This document shows, piece by piece, positions 17,110-25,692 of a stretch of 46,757 bases of DNA. A program made the position numbers and the translations under genes. The notes under the pieces were generated by a model that was given only the letters and a program-made list of their open reading frames with translations, did no database searches and was not told where the DNA came from. Positions within the stretch are counted from its first letter, which is position 1, and every line of letters starts with the position of its first letter. Source of the stretch: Nostoc linckia FACHB-104 (GTDB taxonomy: Bacteria > Cyanobacteriota > Cyanobacteriia > Cyanobacteriales > Nostocaceae); the NCBI RefSeq assembly GCF_014696615.1, contig NZ_JACJQJ010000065.1:1-46757 (forward strand), read 5' to 3'.

Positions 17110-18627
17110 TCATGAAGATGAGCGAAATAGCTCAACCACTGTTGGCTTAGTTACCTTCCCCATAGCATTACGTGGTAGTTCTTCAACTGTCAAAATTCTA
17201 GTGGGAATTTTATAAACTGCTAATTGCTCTTTTGCCCAATTCCTAAAATATTCTAATGTCAACTGGCGCTGTGGTTGCAATACTAAAGCTGCACAGACTC
17301 GCTCACCCCATTCTGGATCGGGAACGCCGACAACTGCACATTCTTGTATATCTGGATGGGTTCTTAATACTTCTTCAATTTCTAAAGCCGAGACTTTATA
17401 GCCGCCAGTTTTGATAATATCCACGCTCATCCGCCCTAGAATGCGGTAGTTACCATTCTCAACTACGGCGAGATCGCCGGTACAAAACCAGCCATCTTTA
17501 AAAGCCTTTGCGGTTGCTTGGGGATTTTGCCAATATTCTAAAAATACTGTGGGGCCTTTAACTTGGATTTCGCCTGGAGTTCCTGGTGAAACTAACTCTC
17601 CACTTTCATCTACTAATCTGACTTCCACTTGCGGTAGTGGTTTTCCTACATATCCTGAGTAACGTTGACCATGTAAAGGATTGGACAACGCCATACCAAT
17701 TTCTGTCATCCCATAGCGTTCAAGCAGAAAGTGGTTGCTAATACTCTGCCATTTTTCTAAAACTTGAACTGGTAAGGCTGCTGAACCAGAAACCATGAGG
17801 CGCATTTTGCTACAGCCATCTGTCATACTTTTTTGGCGATCGCTAGAAGCAGCTTCCCAAGCAGCAATTAGCTTGACATAAATCGTGGGAACTGCCATAA
17901 ATAAGGTTAAGTCACCCTCACAAATTCTATTCCAGACGGTTTCAGCATCAAATTTGCTCAAAATATGACACTCAGCACCAGCCCATAAAGCACAAGTAAG
18001 GACGTTGATAATTCCATGAATATGATGCAGGGGAAGTACATGGAGAATGCGATCGCACAGCGTCTCCGTAGGAGAATCATTGGATGTCCATTCCCAAGCT
18101 GTAATTAAGCTAGTCACTTGCGCTTGAATATTTTTATGAGTTGTCACTACGCCTTTGGGTTTACCTGTGGTACCGCTTGTGTAGAGAATTAAGGCGCGTC
18201 TAGTGATATCTACTTTTGGAAAGCGATCAACAGGATCTGGAAGTGTTTCTGAGGTGAGGATAAATCGTAAATTTTTTTCAGTAGCGATCGCTCGCAATAT
18301 TGCTTCAAAATTGGGATGAGCAACAATAATCGATGCTCCGGAATTTGTAATTACATACTCTAATTCTGGTTTTGGGTGAGAAATACACAGAGGTACAGCT
18401 ATTCCACCAGCACGCCAAATCCCCCATTGAGTAGCGACATACTCAAACCCAGGTGGTATAAGAAAAGCAACTCGCACCTCCTGTAAATCTTCTGCATCTT
18501 GAAGCAAATTTGCTGCTATTTGACTAGATGTTTGCAGCAAATTTCTGTAGGTAAATGCTCCGTCCGTTGTAACAATTGCTATTTTCTCGTTATGCTCTTG
18601 AGCAAGAGTAATTAAAGGGAGATTCAC
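17110..18627 (-). CDS. AMP-forming acyl-CoA ligase, malonyl-CoA-synthetase-like
   Basis: A 505-residue ANL-superfamily enzyme that adenylates a carboxylic acid and transfers it to CoA. Motifs: P-loop YTSGTTGKPKG at residues 149-159, LPLHHIHG, the YGMTEIGMALSNPL block, TGDLA, and the C-terminal catalytic Lys in RNAMGKVTK. The length and the HGIINVLTCALWAGAECHIL region resemble MatB-type malonyl-CoA synthetases, but the substrate cannot be fixed by eye. It follows the last phn gene across a 126-base gap filled by TTGACGG heptamers on the same strand. It may be read from the phn transcript, without a known role in phosphonate breakdown. Confidence 0.85.
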   Translation of the reverse strand: MNLPLITLAQEHNEKIAIVTTDGAFTYRNLLQTSSQIAANLLQDAEDLQEVRVAFLIPPGFEYVATQWGIWRAGGIAVPLCISHPKPELEYVITNSGASIIVAHPNFEAILRAIATEKNLRFILTSETLPDPVDRFPKVDITRRALILYTSGTTGKPKGVVTTHKNIQAQVTSLITAWEWTSNDSPTETLCDRILHVLPLHHIHGIINVLTCALWAGAECHILSKFDAETVWNRICEGDLTLFMAVPTIYVKLIAAWEAASSDRQKSMTDGCSKMRLMVSGSAALPVQVLEKWQSISNHFLLERYGMTEIGMALSNPLHGQRYSGYVGKPLPQVEVRLVDESGELVSPGTPGEIQVKGPTVFLEYWQNPQATAKAFKDGWFCTGDLAVVENGNYRILGRMSVDIIKTGGYKVSALEIEEVLRTHPDIQECAVVGVPDPEWGERVCAALVLQPQRQLTLEYFRNWAKEQLAVYKIPTRILTVEELPRNAMGKVTKPTVVELFRSSS

Positions 18628-18753: not shown

Positions 18754-19890
18754 TTAAGCAACGCGATCGCCTCGGCAGATAGTTGCAGTTAAACGAGGTA
18801 CGATACCATCATCATGAACAGTGATAAAATCTGCTCTTTTGCCGATTTCTAGACTACCGCGATCGCTAAATACATTAATGGCTTTGGCTGGGTTACTGGT
18901 AAATAATTGCATTGCTTCGTAAATCGGCTTTTCTGTTTTCTGTGCAATCATAAAAATTGATTGCAATAAGCTTTGGGGAACGTAATCAGAGGAAATCACA
19001 TCCACTAAATTTTGCAATACCAATTCCATTGCAGAAACATTACCAGAATGAGAACCACCCAAAACTAAATTTGGCGCACCCATTAATACTTGTAATCCTA
19101 AACTGTGCGCTGCTTTAGCTGCTTCTAAGGTAGTAGGAAATTCCGCTAATACTGCACCATCTTGCACCGCTTCTTTAACGTGTTCTACGGTAGCATCATC
19201 ATGACTGGCTAAGGAAATACCTTGAGTTTGAGCGAGTTCTACTAAAGCTGTCCGGTTTTTCTGTGCATATATTTCTTGTTTTTGCTGACGAATTAAAATA
19301 AATTCATCCATTTGATCAGCAGTCACACCATGTTTACCCATATAGTATTCTTTAAACTTATCTAAGCGGATAAACTGGCGTTGTCCAGGGGTGTGATCCA
19401 TCAATGAAATCATGGATAACAGAGGATGATTGATATATTGTGCGGTAATTTCATAGACCTGTTCATAAGCTAATTCACAACGTAAATGCAGGCGATGTTC
19501 CACACAAAAGCGTCCTGCTGCTTGTCCTTGGGAGACAACATCAATCATCGGTGCATAGTTAATTAAGCGCGGAGAACCAGCTGCTACATCACCAATTGCG
19601 ATCGCATCACATACTGTTGTGACTCCGGCGCTGGCTAAATCGCGATCGTGATAAACTGCTGCGGCTTCTAAAGGCCAGCGAATACCAGGACGAGGAGACA
19701 TACAGCGTTCTAGGTTGTCGGTGTGTAACTCAATTAATCCTGGTAAAAGATAATCTCCCTCACCATTTTGTCCCTGACTCACAACTCCTGGTTGAATATC
19801 AGCAATCAATCCATCTCTGACTACTAAAGTACCCAGCAGTTCTTGATTTGGTAGTTGCAGACGATAGTTAGTGTAAATCTGCTCGTTCAT
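18754..19890 (-). CDS. phnM: PhnM, ribose 1-methylphosphonate 5-triphosphate diphosphatase (copy 1)
   Basis: A 378-residue amidohydrolase that follows E. coli PhnM closely: LLPGLIELHTDN, HRLHLRCEL, SLMDHTPGQRQF, SLASHDDATVEH, LMGAPNLVLGGSHSGN and DVISSDYVPQSLL. PhnM removes pyrophosphate from the alkylphosphonate-ribose triphosphate made by PhnGHI(L), giving the substrate of the PhnJ C-P lyase. It acts in the cytoplasm. It is the last phn gene of the GHIJKLM run, downstream of phnL across a heptamer-rich gap. A second, divergent PhnM is encoded at 23206-24411; this copy is the orthodox one. Confidence 0.93.
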   Translation of the reverse strand: MNEQIYTNYRLQLPNQELLGTLVVRDGLIADIQPGVVSQGQNGEGDYLLPGLIELHTDNLERCMSPRPGIRWPLEAAAVYHDRDLASAGVTTVCDAIAIGDVAAGSPRLINYAPMIDVVSQGQAAGRFCVEHRLHLRCELAYEQVYEITAQYINHPLLSMISLMDHTPGQRQFIRLDKFKEYYMGKHGVTADQMDEFILIRQQKQEIYAQKNRTALVELAQTQGISLASHDDATVEHVKEAVQDGAVLAEFPTTLEAAKAAHSLGLQVLMGAPNLVLGGSHSGNVSAMELVLQNLVDVISSDYVPQSLLQSIFMIAQKTEKPIYEAMQLFTSNPAKAINVFSDRGSLEIGKRADFITVHDDGIVPRLTATICRGDRVA

Positions 19891-21624: not shown

Positions 21625-21698
21625 GTCATTGGTCATTTGTTATTAGTCATCAGTCAACCGTCATCAGTCAACCGTCAACAGTCATCAGTCAACCGTCA
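21625..21698. repeat. Heptamer tract after phnJ
   Basis: TCATCAG/TCAACCG units run up to the phnJ stop. The last PhnJ residues (Val-Asp) and its TGA are written by a repeat unit (GTTGACTGA on the minus strand). Confidence 0.88.
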
Positions 21699-22598
21699 TC
21701 AGTCAACACTTCTTTTATTACAAAAATCCGTATCTGAACAAATCCACATTCGCCCGCCTTGGTCATCAATCACGACTTCATCTAAATAGCTTTCTGTAGA
21801 ACCGCATAACTCACAGGCTTTATCCCATTTTTCTACGGTGAAGGGATGGTCTTCAAAATCTAGGCTTTTGACTTTGGTGTAGGGTGGAATTGCATATATG
21901 CGTTTTTCTCTCCCTGCACCAAATAATTGCAATGCGGGACTCATATTCATTTTGGGATTATCAAAGCGGGGAATGGGGCTAGGACTCATTAAATAACGGT
22001 CATGCACCATTACGGGATAATCGTAGGATGTGGCAATGTGTCCATGTGTGGTGATATCTTCGTAAAGTTTGACGTACATCGCCCCATATTCTTCTAAAGC
22101 GTGCATTTTTCCTGTCTCTACAGATGAGGGTTCTAGCCAGCGCAAAGGTTCGGGAATTGGTACTTGGTAAACTAAAATCTGTCCGTCTTTGAGTGGTGTT
22201 TCGGGTATGCGATGGCGCGTCTGAATCAGAGTGGCTTCTTGGGTGTGTTCTGTTGTCTCTACACCACAAACTTTTTTGAAAAAGCGACGAATATTTACAG
22301 CGTTTGTCGTATCATCTGCACCTTGATCGATGACTTTCAAGACATCAGTTTGACCGATTACAGCAGCCGTTACTTGAATCCCCCCAGTACCCCAGCCGTA
22401 AGACATGGGCATTTCTCTGGAAGAAAAGGGTATTTGATGTCCGGGAATCGCCACAGCTTTCAGCAAGGCGCGGCGAATAGAACGCTTTGTTTGTTCGTCT
22501 AGGTAGGCGAAGTTGAAGCCTGGTTCGGGGGATGGGGGATTGGGGATTGGGGACTGGGGACTGGGGATTGGGGACTGGGGATTGGGAGAAATAGTCAT
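21699..22598 (-). CDS. phnJ: PhnJ, radical-SAM carbon-phosphorus lyase
   Basis: A 299-residue PhnJ, the radical-SAM enzyme that breaks the C-P bond of ribose phosphonate 5-phosphate. The match to E. coli PhnJ starts at FNFAYLDEQTKR (residue 28) and runs to the end. The C-terminal cysteines Cys262, Cys265, Cys287 and Cys293 correspond to E. coli 241, 244, 266 and 272. The catalytic Gly (E. coli Gly32) is Gly53 in AIPG. The extra 21 N-terminal residues are Pro-Ser-rich and encoded by a TGGGGA-type repeat. No Met lies between the repeat and the conserved core, and the ATG overlaps the upstream gene's stop (ATGA, 22595-22598), so the repeat-encoded start is probably real. The last two residues also come from a repeat. 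Confidence 0.95.
   Translation of the reverse strand: MTISPNPQSPIPSPQSPIPNPPSPEPGFNFAYLDEQTKRSIRRALLKAVAIPGHQIPFSSREMPMSYGWGTGGIQVTAAVIGQTDVLKVIDQGADDTTNAVNIRRFFKKVCGVETTEHTQEATLIQTRHRIPETPLKDGQILVYQVPIPEPLRWLEPSSVETGKMHALEEYGAMYVKLYEDITTHGHIATSYDYPVMVHDRYLMSPSPIPRFDNPKMNMSPALQLFGAGREKRIYAIPPYTKVKSLDFEDHPFTVEKWDKACELCGSTESYLDEVVIDDQGGRMWICSDTDFCNKRSVD
22525..22590. repeat. GGGGACT/GGGGATT heptamer repeat coding for the PhnJ N-terminus
   Basis: Nine or so units of the GGGGACT/GGGGATT heptamer lie within the first 75 coding bases of phnJ and are read as a Pro-Asn-Pro-Gln-Ser-Pro-Ile pattern. Confidence 0.88.
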
Positions 22599-23152
22599 TG
22601 GATGGGGGATAGTAAAGAAGCGTTCATGTATTGGGTGAAGTAGTTTAAGTCAGTGGTGGGTAGATTTTTTATTTTGGCTTTGTCGTCGTAAATTCTTAGC
22701 TGTACTGCATCTTCGGCGTAAGGTTGCTGAATAAATTGCTCTGCTTGTTCTGGGGAAAATATGCCTCCTTGCAGTTCTAAGCTGCGTTTGGAAGCAACTG
22801 AGAGACTATCCCAATATTCAGGATCAATTGAGCAAAGATAACGTTTAGCGACGACATGAAGTCTAATTGGTTCTGTGACTGCTGAATTGAAAATCTGCTT
22901 TAGTAAAGGTATAGCGCGATGTTCGTGATGATCATCTATACCTTGGCTAGCGGGATTATCACCCAAGTCATGAATTAAATGCCCTAAATCATGGAGTAAA
23001 CAAGCGGTAATTAATTCATGGCTGTGACCTGATTGTTCAGCGAGGCTAGCACATTGCAAGGCGTGTTCTAGTTGGCTGACGGCTTCCGCACCATACAATT
23101 GAGAACCTTTTTCGGTGAATAGGTTAATGATGTTTTCGATGGTAGGGTTCAT
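22595..23152 (-). CDS. PhnZ-like HD-domain oxygenase of phosphonate operons
   Basis: A 185-residue HD-domain protein of the kind found in phosphonate operons, similar to PhnZ. PhnZ uses a mixed-valence di-iron centre to split 2-amino-1-hydroxyethylphosphonate into glycine and phosphate. By alignment to PhnZ from memory, all six metal ligands are present: His30 (QLEH), His54-Asp55 (LLHDLGH), His76 or 78 (DDHHEHR), His99 (RLHVVAKRY) and Asp156 (IYDDKAK). Substrate-contacting Tyr20 and Lys103 are also in place, as is the SLELQGGIF segment. It lies between phnM2 and phnJ and its stop overlaps the phnJ start by four bases, implying coupled translation. No PhnY partner is in the window, so the substrate may differ. 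Confidence 0.85.
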   Translation of the reverse strand: MNPTIENIINLFTEKGSQLYGAEAVSQLEHALQCASLAEQSGHSHELITACLLHDLGHLIHDLGDNPASQGIDDHHEHRAIPLLKQIFNSAVTEPIRLHVVAKRYLCSIDPEYWDSLSVASKRSLELQGGIFSPEQAEQFIQQPYAEDAVQLRIYDDKAKIKNLPTTDLNYFTQYMNASLLSPIQ

Positions 23153-23205: not shown

Positions 23206-24411
23206 TTAAATCTGGTAGCGGGCGACTTCTTGTCCGGCTACGTATACAGATGAAATTGCAGTAATCGCAGATGGTAAGGAATTATTAGGAGATATCAAGA
23301 GGAAATCTGCATCTAAACCTGGGGCGATTTTGCCTTTGCGATCGCTAATTCCCGCAGCTTTTGCTGGTAGGCTAGAAACTAATGACCATGCTTGTTCAAA
23401 GGACATTAAGCCTAATTCTTGGAGCTTGAAAGGGGCGTAAAACAAAGAAGGGTAATGATAATCTGAGCAGAGACAATCGATAACGTTATTTTTTACCGCC
23501 TCAGCTACACTCATCAAACCTAAGTGGGAACCACCACGCACTAAGTTAGGCGCACCCATGAGGACGGCTGCACCATATTCACGACACTTTGCTGCTAAAT
23601 CTACAGTCGCGGGAAATTCTGCGATCGCAACTCTGCGCTGTTGACTAAGTAAGACTTTTTCGAGGCTATCATCATCATGGGACGCAAGCGGAATACTATA
23701 TTTATGAGCTAATTCCACCAGTTCTTGTATTTGTGCGTCGCCTTCGTGTCGTTTTGCTGTCACCTGATTGATTAATTCTTCAATCTCTTCTAGAGACATG
23801 GATGATCTCTGCTTCACACTATTGATATAGCGGCTAAATCTCTTTTGATTACCTGGGGGTGGTAGGTGATCGTTGATAGATAAAAGATGCACTTTACCAG
23901 ATATCATCCAATCACATAACTCTTGATGTCCGGCTATATTTGCTTCTTCGTGTCTAATATGAATGCGATGATTGCAGTGTAAAACTTGTTTACCTACCCC
24001 TAAAATGAAGTCAATTAAAGCACGAGCAGAATCGCGACTGCGTAACCCTGGTTCGTAAGAGTCTGTAATTGAGCAGTAAAAAGTAGTGATACCAGACGCT
24101 AAGAGGTTACGGTCATTATCTGCGATCGCTATTGGTAGAGGAAAATTAACTCCCGGACGAGGACAAATCATCCTCTCAAAAGCATCACCATGTAAGTCAA
24201 TAATTCCTGGTAACATCTGGAGACCTTGACCATTTACCAGATGAAATCCATTAGGGCTTATTGCCTGATCAATACTAATAAATTGCCCATCTTCAATTAA
24301 AACAGTGGCATCTTTTACCCAATCATCAGGAGTTAAGACATTTACTCCTTGAATCGCAATTTTTGTATTATTTAATTTTGACAATATTTGAATAGTTTGT
24401 GTTGTTGTCAC
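23206..24411 (-). CDS. Divergent PhnM-family amidohydrolase (copy 2)
   Basis: A 401-residue PhnM homologue clearly different from copy 1. Shared landmarks: MLPGIIDLHGDAFER (copy 1 has LIELHTDNLER), HRIHIRHEE, SINDHLPPPGNQKRF with an inserted PPPG, PLASHDDDS, LMGAPNLVRGGSHLG and LCSDYHYPSL. The metal-binding His-x-Asp and later Asp/His residues are kept, so it should be catalytically active. It lies between phnI and the HD gene, where E. coli has no phnM. It may hydrolyse a different intermediate, for example work with the HD enzyme, or act on another nucleotide phosphonate. It belongs to the same transcript as its neighbours. Confidence 0.85.
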   Translation of the reverse strand: MTTTQTIQILSKLNNTKIAIQGVNVLTPDDWVKDATVLIEDGQFISIDQAISPNGFHLVNGQGLQMLPGIIDLHGDAFERMICPRPGVNFPLPIAIADNDRNLLASGITTFYCSITDSYEPGLRSRDSARALIDFILGVGKQVLHCNHRIHIRHEEANIAGHQELCDWMISGKVHLLSINDHLPPPGNQKRFSRYINSVKQRSSMSLEEIEELINQVTAKRHEGDAQIQELVELAHKYSIPLASHDDDSLEKVLLSQQRRVAIAEFPATVDLAAKCREYGAAVLMGAPNLVRGGSHLGLMSVAEAVKNNVIDCLCSDYHYPSLFYAPFKLQELGLMSFEQAWSLVSSLPAKAAGISDRKGKIAPGLDADFLLISPNNSLPSAITAISSVYVAGQEVARYQI

Positions 24412-24447: not shown

Positions 24448-25692
24448 CTAAACTTTACTAACAGGAAAAGTTTCCTTGTTTAATTCCTGACTTTCTTCTT
24501 GCTGAGATTCTTCCGGTATAACTGTTAAATCTGATGATTGATTATTTACTTGTTGCTGCCGAATTTTTCTTACTAAATTTAACTCTGCTTGAAAGTCAAT
24601 ATAGTGTGGAAGTTTAAGATGTTGTACAAAGCCTTGAGCTTCCACATTATCGGAGTGTAAAAGCACAAATTCAACATTTTGCGCTGGCCCTTGAATTGTT
24701 TCTCCTAATTCTTCAGCGCGCATTGCTCTATCTACCAACGCCATTGACATAGCTTTACGTTCGTTATAACCAAAGGTGAGGCCATAACCACGGGTAAATT
24801 GTGCGGGTAATTCTTTACTACCTTTAAATTGATTAACCATTTGCACTTCAGTGACAGTAATATCTGCGATCGCAATTTCAAATCCCAATTCTTCAGGACA
24901 AATCACCACCTCTACTTCCCCCATGCGAATCTCACCCGCAAACGGATGGTTTCTGCCGTAACCCCGTTGTGTAGAATAAGCCAGAGATAGCAAAAAACCC
25001 TCATCTGCACGCGCTAGATTTTGCAGTCTCGCATCTCGTCCAGCCGGAAAGGTTAATGGTTGGCGAGTTAAATCGAAGGGTTGTTGACTGTTGGTTGTTG
25101 ACTGTTGACTGTTGACTGTTGACTGGGGATTAAAAAATTCTTTCTCTGCTCCCCTGCTCCCCTGCTCCCCTGCTCCTCTGCTCTCCTCTGCTTGCATCAA
25201 TCCCTCTTGATCTAGGGTGTCAATTACACGGGGAATTGGTTCTGTAATGGCTTCTGCTTCTGGTGCTGGTGGTACTTGTCCTTCTGCTATTAATTTAAAA
25301 TCTAGTAGACGGTGAATATAGTCAAAAGTAGGGCCTAACTTTTGCCCTCCTGGGACATCTTTAAAAATGGCAGAAATGCGGCGTTGAATCTGCATTTTGC
25401 TGGTGTCTAAAGGTTGGCTGTAGTAAAAACGGGGAAGTGTTGTCCGATAGGCGCGTAATAAGAAAACTGCTTCGACTAAATCACCCCAAGATTGTTTAAT
25501 AGCTAGAGATGCTAACTCTCGGTCATATAAACTACCTTCACAAATTACCCTTTCTACTGCTAGAGTTAACTGTTGTTCAATCTGGTCTACAGTTAATTCA
25601 GGAATTGTCGGATCGCCTCTGCGCCTATTTTTAAGTAGCGCTTCTGCATTTTGAATTGCCTGTTCTCCACCTTTGACTGCAACGTATGGCAT
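24448..25692 (-). CDS. phnI: PhnI, C-P lyase core subunit with repeat-encoded insertion
   Basis: A 414-residue PhnI; the E. coli protein has 354. PhnI carries the purine nucleosidase-type activity that, with PhnG, H and L, exchanges adenine of ATP for the phosphonate. Conserved blocks: YVAVKGGEQAI, RRRGDPTIPELTVDQIEQQL, PGGQKLGPTFDYIHRLLDF, LAYSTQRGYGRNHPFAGEIR, PAQFTRGYGLTFGYNERKA and LKLPHYIDFQAELNL. Residues about 170-206 are an insertion rich in Gln, Ser, Asn and Gly, encoded by a heptamer tract (25075-25185) and placed in a surface-type linker before the LTRQPLTFPAGRDARLQ block. The C-terminal tail (about 390-414) is also Gln/Glu-rich. The reading frame is intact, so the protein is likely functional. 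Confidence 0.94.
   Translation of the reverse strand: MPYVAVKGGEQAIQNAEALLKNRRRGDPTIPELTVDQIEQQLTLAVERVICEGSLYDRELASLAIKQSWGDLVEAVFLLRAYRTTLPRFYYSQPLDTSKMQIQRRISAIFKDVPGGQKLGPTFDYIHRLLDFKLIAEGQVPPAPEAEAITEPIPRVIDTLDQEGLMQAEESRGAGEQGSRGAEKEFFNPQSTVNSQQSTTNSQQPFDLTRQPLTFPAGRDARLQNLARADEGFLLSLAYSTQRGYGRNHPFAGEIRMGEVEVVICPEELGFEIAIADITVTEVQMVNQFKGSKELPAQFTRGYGLTFGYNERKAMSMALVDRAMRAEELGETIQGPAQNVEFVLLHSDNVEAQGFVQHLKLPHYIDFQAELNLVRKIRQQQVNNQSSDLTVIPEESQQEESQELNKETFPVSKV
25075..25185. repeat. In-frame heptamer tract inside phnI
   Basis: GTTGACT units followed by CTGCTCCC units within the phnI coding sequence. Together they encode the extra segment of residues about 170-206 without breaking the frame. 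Confidence 0.88.

Follow-up and report, generated by a model that had tools for sequence, protein, structure and literature searches.

The radical-SAM subunit of C-P lyase, PhnJ, is encoded in Nostoc linckia FACHB-104 by a gene whose first codons contain a GGGGA(C/T)T-type heptamer array, and we propose, with high confidence on the strength of comparative sequence data, that this array changes in length by slippage, is translated into a flexible tail and is kept in frame by selection. A cyanobacterial short tandem heptamer repeat located in the first codons of phnJ would thus lengthen and shorten, its translation would give a flexible N-terminal tail, and selection on C-P lyase would keep the start ATG and the conserved core in one frame; the net changes that survive would accordingly be multiples of three bases, in many cases three heptamers (21 nt, or 7 residues). 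The tail peptide itself would be nearly unconstrained. The gene offers a natural test of a seven-base repeat inside a coding sequence, in which the repeat still varies and the steps keep the frame.

The array in the first codons of phnJ

The window, that is, the whole stretch of DNA analyzed (46,757 nucleotides), contains the following features at and around the phnJ start:

21699..22598, minus strand: phnJ, C-P lyase radical-SAM subunit, 299 aa (Pfam PF06007, E 2.6e-151, 502.7 bits; PDB 7z15_D, 4xb6_D)
22518..22598, minus strand: phnJ leader, from the ATG to the last codon before the FNFAYLDE core, 81 nt, 27 codons (Pfam and PDB alignment)
22528..22586, minus strand: GGGGA(C/T)T heptamer array (coding strand CCCCAAT/CCCCAGT), phnJ codons 5-24, read as PNPQSPIPSPQSPIPNPPSP (TRF)
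22595..22598, minus strand: ATGA in which the stop of the HD gene and the start of phnJ overlap, 4 nt (ORF coordinates)
22595..23152, minus strand: HD gene, of the HD-domain oxygenase family for phosphonate degradation, TIGR03276 (NCBIfam, 253.5 bits against a cutoff of 214.6)

The array was recovered by TRF with a period of 7, 8.4 copies, 90% matches and a score of 90, some units being altered from CCCCAAT/CCCCAGT. The sequence GGGGAYTGGGGAYT occurs six times in the window, always within this array, and was absent from 100 shuffles; the array is far above chance expectation. With GGGGATT/GGGGACT units in tandem (at least two), it belongs to the heptamer repeat family (STRR), and the genome-wide dispersal of that family is seen in the genome of this strain (G000, 9.4 Mb), where 126 + 120 = 246 overlapping four-unit heptamer matches were counted and a control gave 0.

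Reading from the 5' end, phnJ consists of ATG ACT ATT TCT, the array in codons 5-24, and then the core, GFNFAYLDEQTK. A preliminary description of this DNA had placed the start inside the heptamer run; the array does occupy the first codons, and the ATG lies 12 nt before it. The overlap of this ATG with the stop of the upstream gene (ATGA, 4 nt), also described there, was confirmed by ORF coordinates. Within the first 70 codons, in-frame starts are ATG at codons 1, 63 and 65, GTG at 49 and TTG at 45; a scan of the window ORF found no in-frame ATG, GTG or TTG in codons 2-44, and the TTG at codon 45 is already within the conserved core. The earlier statement that no other methionine precedes the core accordingly holds, the next in-frame ATG being codon 63. 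ATC at codons 11 and 18, within the array, may be regarded as conceivable non-AUG starts.

By PDB alignment, residue 26 of the product pairs with residue 5 of E. coli PhnJ, which gives an extension of 21 residues, as the preliminary description had estimated, rich in Pro, Ser, Asn and Gln; the Pfam PhnJ match starts at residue 28. Residues C262, C265, C287 and C293, among which we take the cluster ligands to lie, are invariant in 37 aligned sequences. The structure model of PhnJ is weak (mean pLDDT 55), with values of 41-46 for residues 1-30. Pro/Ser/Gln-rich starts such as that of PhnJ in Nostoc can be real, which calls for caution in annotation.

PhnJ is required for phosphonate use, and its gene is embedded in an operon with the order phnG, phnH, GNAT gene, phnI, phnM-like gene, HD gene, phnJ, phnK, phnL, phnM, so that phnG, H, I, K, L and M, the companions that mark a C-P lyase operon, are all present. 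Two PhnM-like genes (18754-19890 and 23206-24411) lie within this one operon. According to TRF, seven of the nine spacers between phnG and the ligase gene at 17110 contain period-7 arrays. The array of the phnJ-phnK spacer (21645-21708) overlaps the end of phnJ and seemingly provides its last codons and stop. Among other loci, the phnG-phnH spacer of L039 carries a different short insert within its heptamer array, and the C-terminus of the HD gene of L047 runs into a CAACAGT-type array.

Frame and length of the leader among relatives

To compare phnJ 5' ends, 42 tree rows, mostly from the same family, were hand-picked from 98 unique phnJ loci, with one genome per species. Their leaders were cut at the in-frame ATG; lengths are therefore multiples of three by construction and provide no test of frame, and the same applies to the 13 length changes and 0 frame changes counted on the cut leaders. 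The 14 leaders of 39 + 21n nt form a set selected by those very lengths and are no evidence either. We consequently relied on a frame-blind test, in which the ATG nearest upstream of the core was taken in any frame and regardless of motif, chance being one third. This ATG shared the frame of the core in 40 of 42 genes and, among those with an array, in 23 of 24 (binomial 3e-17 and 2e-10, values that assume independent rows, which these rows are not), as well as in 82 of the 98 unique loci. Only L124 and L051 departed from the frame among the 42: the leader of L124 includes a chance ATG, its homologous start at 39 nt being in frame, and L051 carries no array. Outside the 42, L031, which also has no array, contains no ATG in the leader stretch. 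In an any-frame search, a homologous start motif, composed after the leaders had been viewed, was found in 26 of the 35 rows, which include that of the window, and all 26 have an in-frame copy; L009 has a second match, out of frame, beside the in-frame one.

Frame preservation was also examined along a tree. Across 22 strains, the distance to the nearest ATG changed 14 times and the frame once, the single change being that of L124, whereas nine operon spacers (20-22 strains each) underwent 119 length changes and 67 changes of relative frame (Fisher 4e-4, the events being not fully independent). Against the five array-richest spacers (75 length changes, 43 frame changes), the Fisher value was 8e-4. 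This spacer control also counts changes that do not involve heptamers, and arrays are present in 3-15 of the 20-22 strains per spacer. A separate count for the 21 array rows gave 14 length changes (range 12-15 in 1000 bootstrap trees), where "array-bearing" denotes a hand-made pattern that omits L124, L126 and L140; with these included, the nearest-ATG counts become 16 and 1.

Translation of the array and its filtering for frame are most likely, because no other common start exists, the motif is in frame and the nearest ATG is in frame. These counts bear out the earlier suggestion that the repeat has become coding sequence. Another account would place the true start downstream at a non-AUG codon and regard the array as leader RNA that is open only by chance, stops being uncommon within the repeat. 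Many other arrays of the same genome are indeed open in several frames, and openness alone therefore proves little; however, the first alternative ATG, GTG or TTG in frame is located in the core, and the near-uniform frame of the nearest ATG in array-bearing rows would be hard to square with an untranslated leader, so that we consider this account highly improbable. The overlap with the upstream gene had been thought to fix the start by translational coupling. This part of the preliminary description is weakened, because, of the 27 rows where the end of the HD gene was located (42 scanned), only 11 have an ATGA-type 4-nt overlap, and rows without the overlap retain the start motif.

The leaders as cut range from 21 to 207 nt in the 42 rows, and those with arrays span 33-207 nt, in many cases by 21-nt (three-heptamer) steps. 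An array is also present in phnJ of Calothrix brevissima NIES-22. In one lineage, identical flanks enclose 39 nt (L141), 60 nt (L012) and 207 nt (L138); lengths of 39 and 60 nt occur in the main Nostoc group, and 60 and 81 nt in the genus of the window strain. Some array leaders lie off the 39 + 21n series (33, 48, 69 and 90 nt), among them the 33-nt leader of L011, which equals the 39-nt form minus one unit plus one base, a compensated change. The 39-nt leaders contain only about three units, and four loci (L013, L014, L146, L148) have 7-residue leaders with no array. Between close relatives, operon spacers show differences of one or five heptamers. We infer that slippage is the cause of these differences. 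PhnJ, a conserved enzyme, thus tolerates leaders of 7 to 69 residues among relatives. The longest example (L138:1492-2514, minus strand) has a 207-nt leader with 26 C-tracts and 69 residues, and its nearest tree row, L141, has 13 residues.

A seven-base unit near an N-terminus also raises the question of phase variation. Contingency loci, whose phase-variable coding repeats are short, N-terminal and built of units that are not multiples of three, share this arrangement with phnJ; phnJ, in contrast, is a metabolic gene in which no off-phase allele was seen with one genome per species. Slippage by one or two heptamers would, on this reading, alternately silence and restore phnJ and the genes downstream of it in the population. 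When heptamers were removed or added in silico, the ORF ended at 79, 30, 86 and 37 codons for changes of -2, -1, +1 and +2 and stayed full length for -3 and +3, as expected of a unit that is not a multiple of three with off-phase truncation, and growth of phnJ by 21-nt steps may have proceeded via off-phase intermediates. Off-phase alleles among strains were not observed, however: among array-bearing rows, judged by start motif and nearest ATG, none has an out-of-frame array, and every row with the motif keeps it in frame. A copy-number switch would leave such alleles, and their absence from these rows therefore disfavors it. The array is moreover missing or short in several relatives (the four array-free loci and the 39-nt leaders mentioned above), so that a switch would not be conserved. 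Phase variation by heptamer repeats was likewise held unlikely in the excerpted account of Rehm et al. 2015 (PMC4692102). Of the two claims made earlier about copy number, the shift of frame by non-multiples of three stands in silico, and the switching of the operon, which we consider improbable, is not supported by these rows. To judge from these comparisons, the array appears to encode a tail that is translated and tolerated, and not to serve as an on/off switch.

The array might alternatively act as nucleic acid, its G-rich template strand forming a G-quadruplex that tunes transcription or access to the start. The window leader holds 9 C-tracts, and repeats of this type, in the sections of Rehm et al. 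considered, form G-quadruplexes in vitro and prefer the vicinity of starts on the non-coding strand (PMC4692102). Four or more C-tracts, however, were present in 12 of 42 leaders with loops of up to 7 nt and in 16 of 42 at any spacing, and such a role would leave the conservation of frame unexplained. Since so few leaders have at least four short-loop C-tracts, the capacity is not conserved, and a conserved G-quadruplex function of the phnJ leader was rejected on both counts; we regard the nucleic acid reading as very unlikely. A translated tail of variable length remains our preferred explanation.

A dispersed 24-nt repeat in the phnJ tail

In seven relatives, the tail also contains a 24-nt dispersed repeat. 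Five of them (L126, L134, L042, L043, L046) carry the repeat with the same frame (frame 0) and neighboring bases in leaders of 69 nt; in L120 and L038 it sits at other heptamer positions in 90-nt leaders and is read in frame 2 and frame 1, respectively. The repeat is thus read in all three frames, from which it follows that widely differing sequences are tolerated in the tail as long as they lack stops. The tail is presumably flexible and nearly neutral.

Allowing up to 3 mismatches, genome searches found 26 copies in the window strain, 71 in G359, 22 in G398, 5 in G485, 3 each in G454, G474 and G457, and 1 each in G395 and G473, and did not find the repeat in G459. For G395 and G473, the searches detected no copy other than that in phnJ. 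None of the 71 copies of G359 lies in its own phnJ leader. Heptamer-like bases flank the repeat on both sides in 13 contexts viewed in the window strain, and an RNA fold of the element with its flanks gave no sign of structure (z -0.13). Small dispersed repeats (SDR) of Nostoc were reportedly described by Elhai et al. in 2008. SDR are 21-27 nt long, dispersed and often located within heptamer arrays, and the 24-nt element, dispersed and flanked by heptamer-like bases in the contexts viewed, may be of this kind when compared with that general definition.

Known repeats and other coding arrays

STRR sequences of heterocystous cyanobacteria were reportedly described by Mazel in 1990 and Vioque in 1997. 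The phnJ array differs from them in being situated in a protein-coding gene, so that only changes by multiples of three bases survive in it. The palindromic elements found within ORFs of Rickettsia likewise demonstrate that conserved proteins tolerate in-frame repeats; those elements are longer, mobile palindromes, whereas the phnJ repeat consists of slipping heptamers.

In Nostoc PCC 7120, Rehm et al. 2015 counted 89 GGGGA(C/T)T arrays, 68% of them intergenic, with variable copy number and a preference for the vicinity of gene starts on the non-coding strand, and found no regulatory role for the repeat, which forms G-quadruplexes in vitro (PMC4692102, from the excerpts used). By subtraction from these excerpted figures, about 32% of the arrays are not intergenic, and "normally extragenic", as the repeat had been called, is too strong (PMC4692102). 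The unit and the genome group are common to both cases; what phnJ adds, relative to the parts of that study covered, is frame conservation in one named gene across relatives (PMC4692102). The heptamer repeat itself is thus already known, and its frame-locked change in a named conserved gene is absent from Rehm et al. 2015 as far as covered. A search of open-licence literature, in which phnJ itself was little queried, returned no account of the phnJ N-terminal repeat.

Coding arrays were also found beyond phnJ, and within the operon they occur in phnI:

24448..25692, minus strand: phnI, a second core subunit of C-P lyase, whose internal loop contains coding arrays (Pfam PF05861)
25146..25187, minus strand: octamer array (CTGCTCCC), part of the PhnI loop (TRF and comparison)
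25082..25125, minus strand: heptamer array (TGTTGAC), part of the PhnI loop (TRF and comparison)

Because E. coli PhnI residue 173 aligns with both residue 174 and residue 203 of the query, the loop is extra relative to E. coli. In G359, another heptamer replaces the octamer array, and in G398 the octamer array is missing and the heptamer part is shorter.

Elsewhere in the genome of the window strain, 39 arrays were viewed, namely 36 among the matches listed, two picked for lying in long frames, and phnJ. Fourteen of the 39 lie in stop-to-stop ORFs of more than 150 aa (11 of 36 without the picked two and phnJ). Several may be located upstream of the gene proper, because an ATG follows the array. 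In addition to phnJ, the genes for MobA (L244), Wzy_C (L194), C39-ABC (L230) and TPR/CHAT (L229) proteins look coding through the array on sequence grounds, and MobA is the only one of these four whose main profile matches in two stretches. In MobA of the window strain (L244:1524-2249, plus strand), the heptamer array lies inside the NTP-transferase domain; the array stretch measures 78-195 nt (22 of 30 loci parsable, including that of the window strain), and G397 and G359 are 42 nt, or six heptamers, apart.

A broader and doubtful extension of these findings would be that conserved enzymes of Nostocales (PhnJ, PhnI, MobA and others) generally gain new disordered tails and linkers, in frame, from slipping heptamer arrays and from the small repeats lodged within these, with 21-nt steps perhaps recording short-lived enzyme-off states, since single-heptamer slips break the frame. 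If true, copy-number history would show when phosphonate use was dispensable. Unrelated coding repeats are present at the phnJ N-terminus in other cyanobacteria, with a 12-nt unit in L059 and a 9-nt unit in L065.
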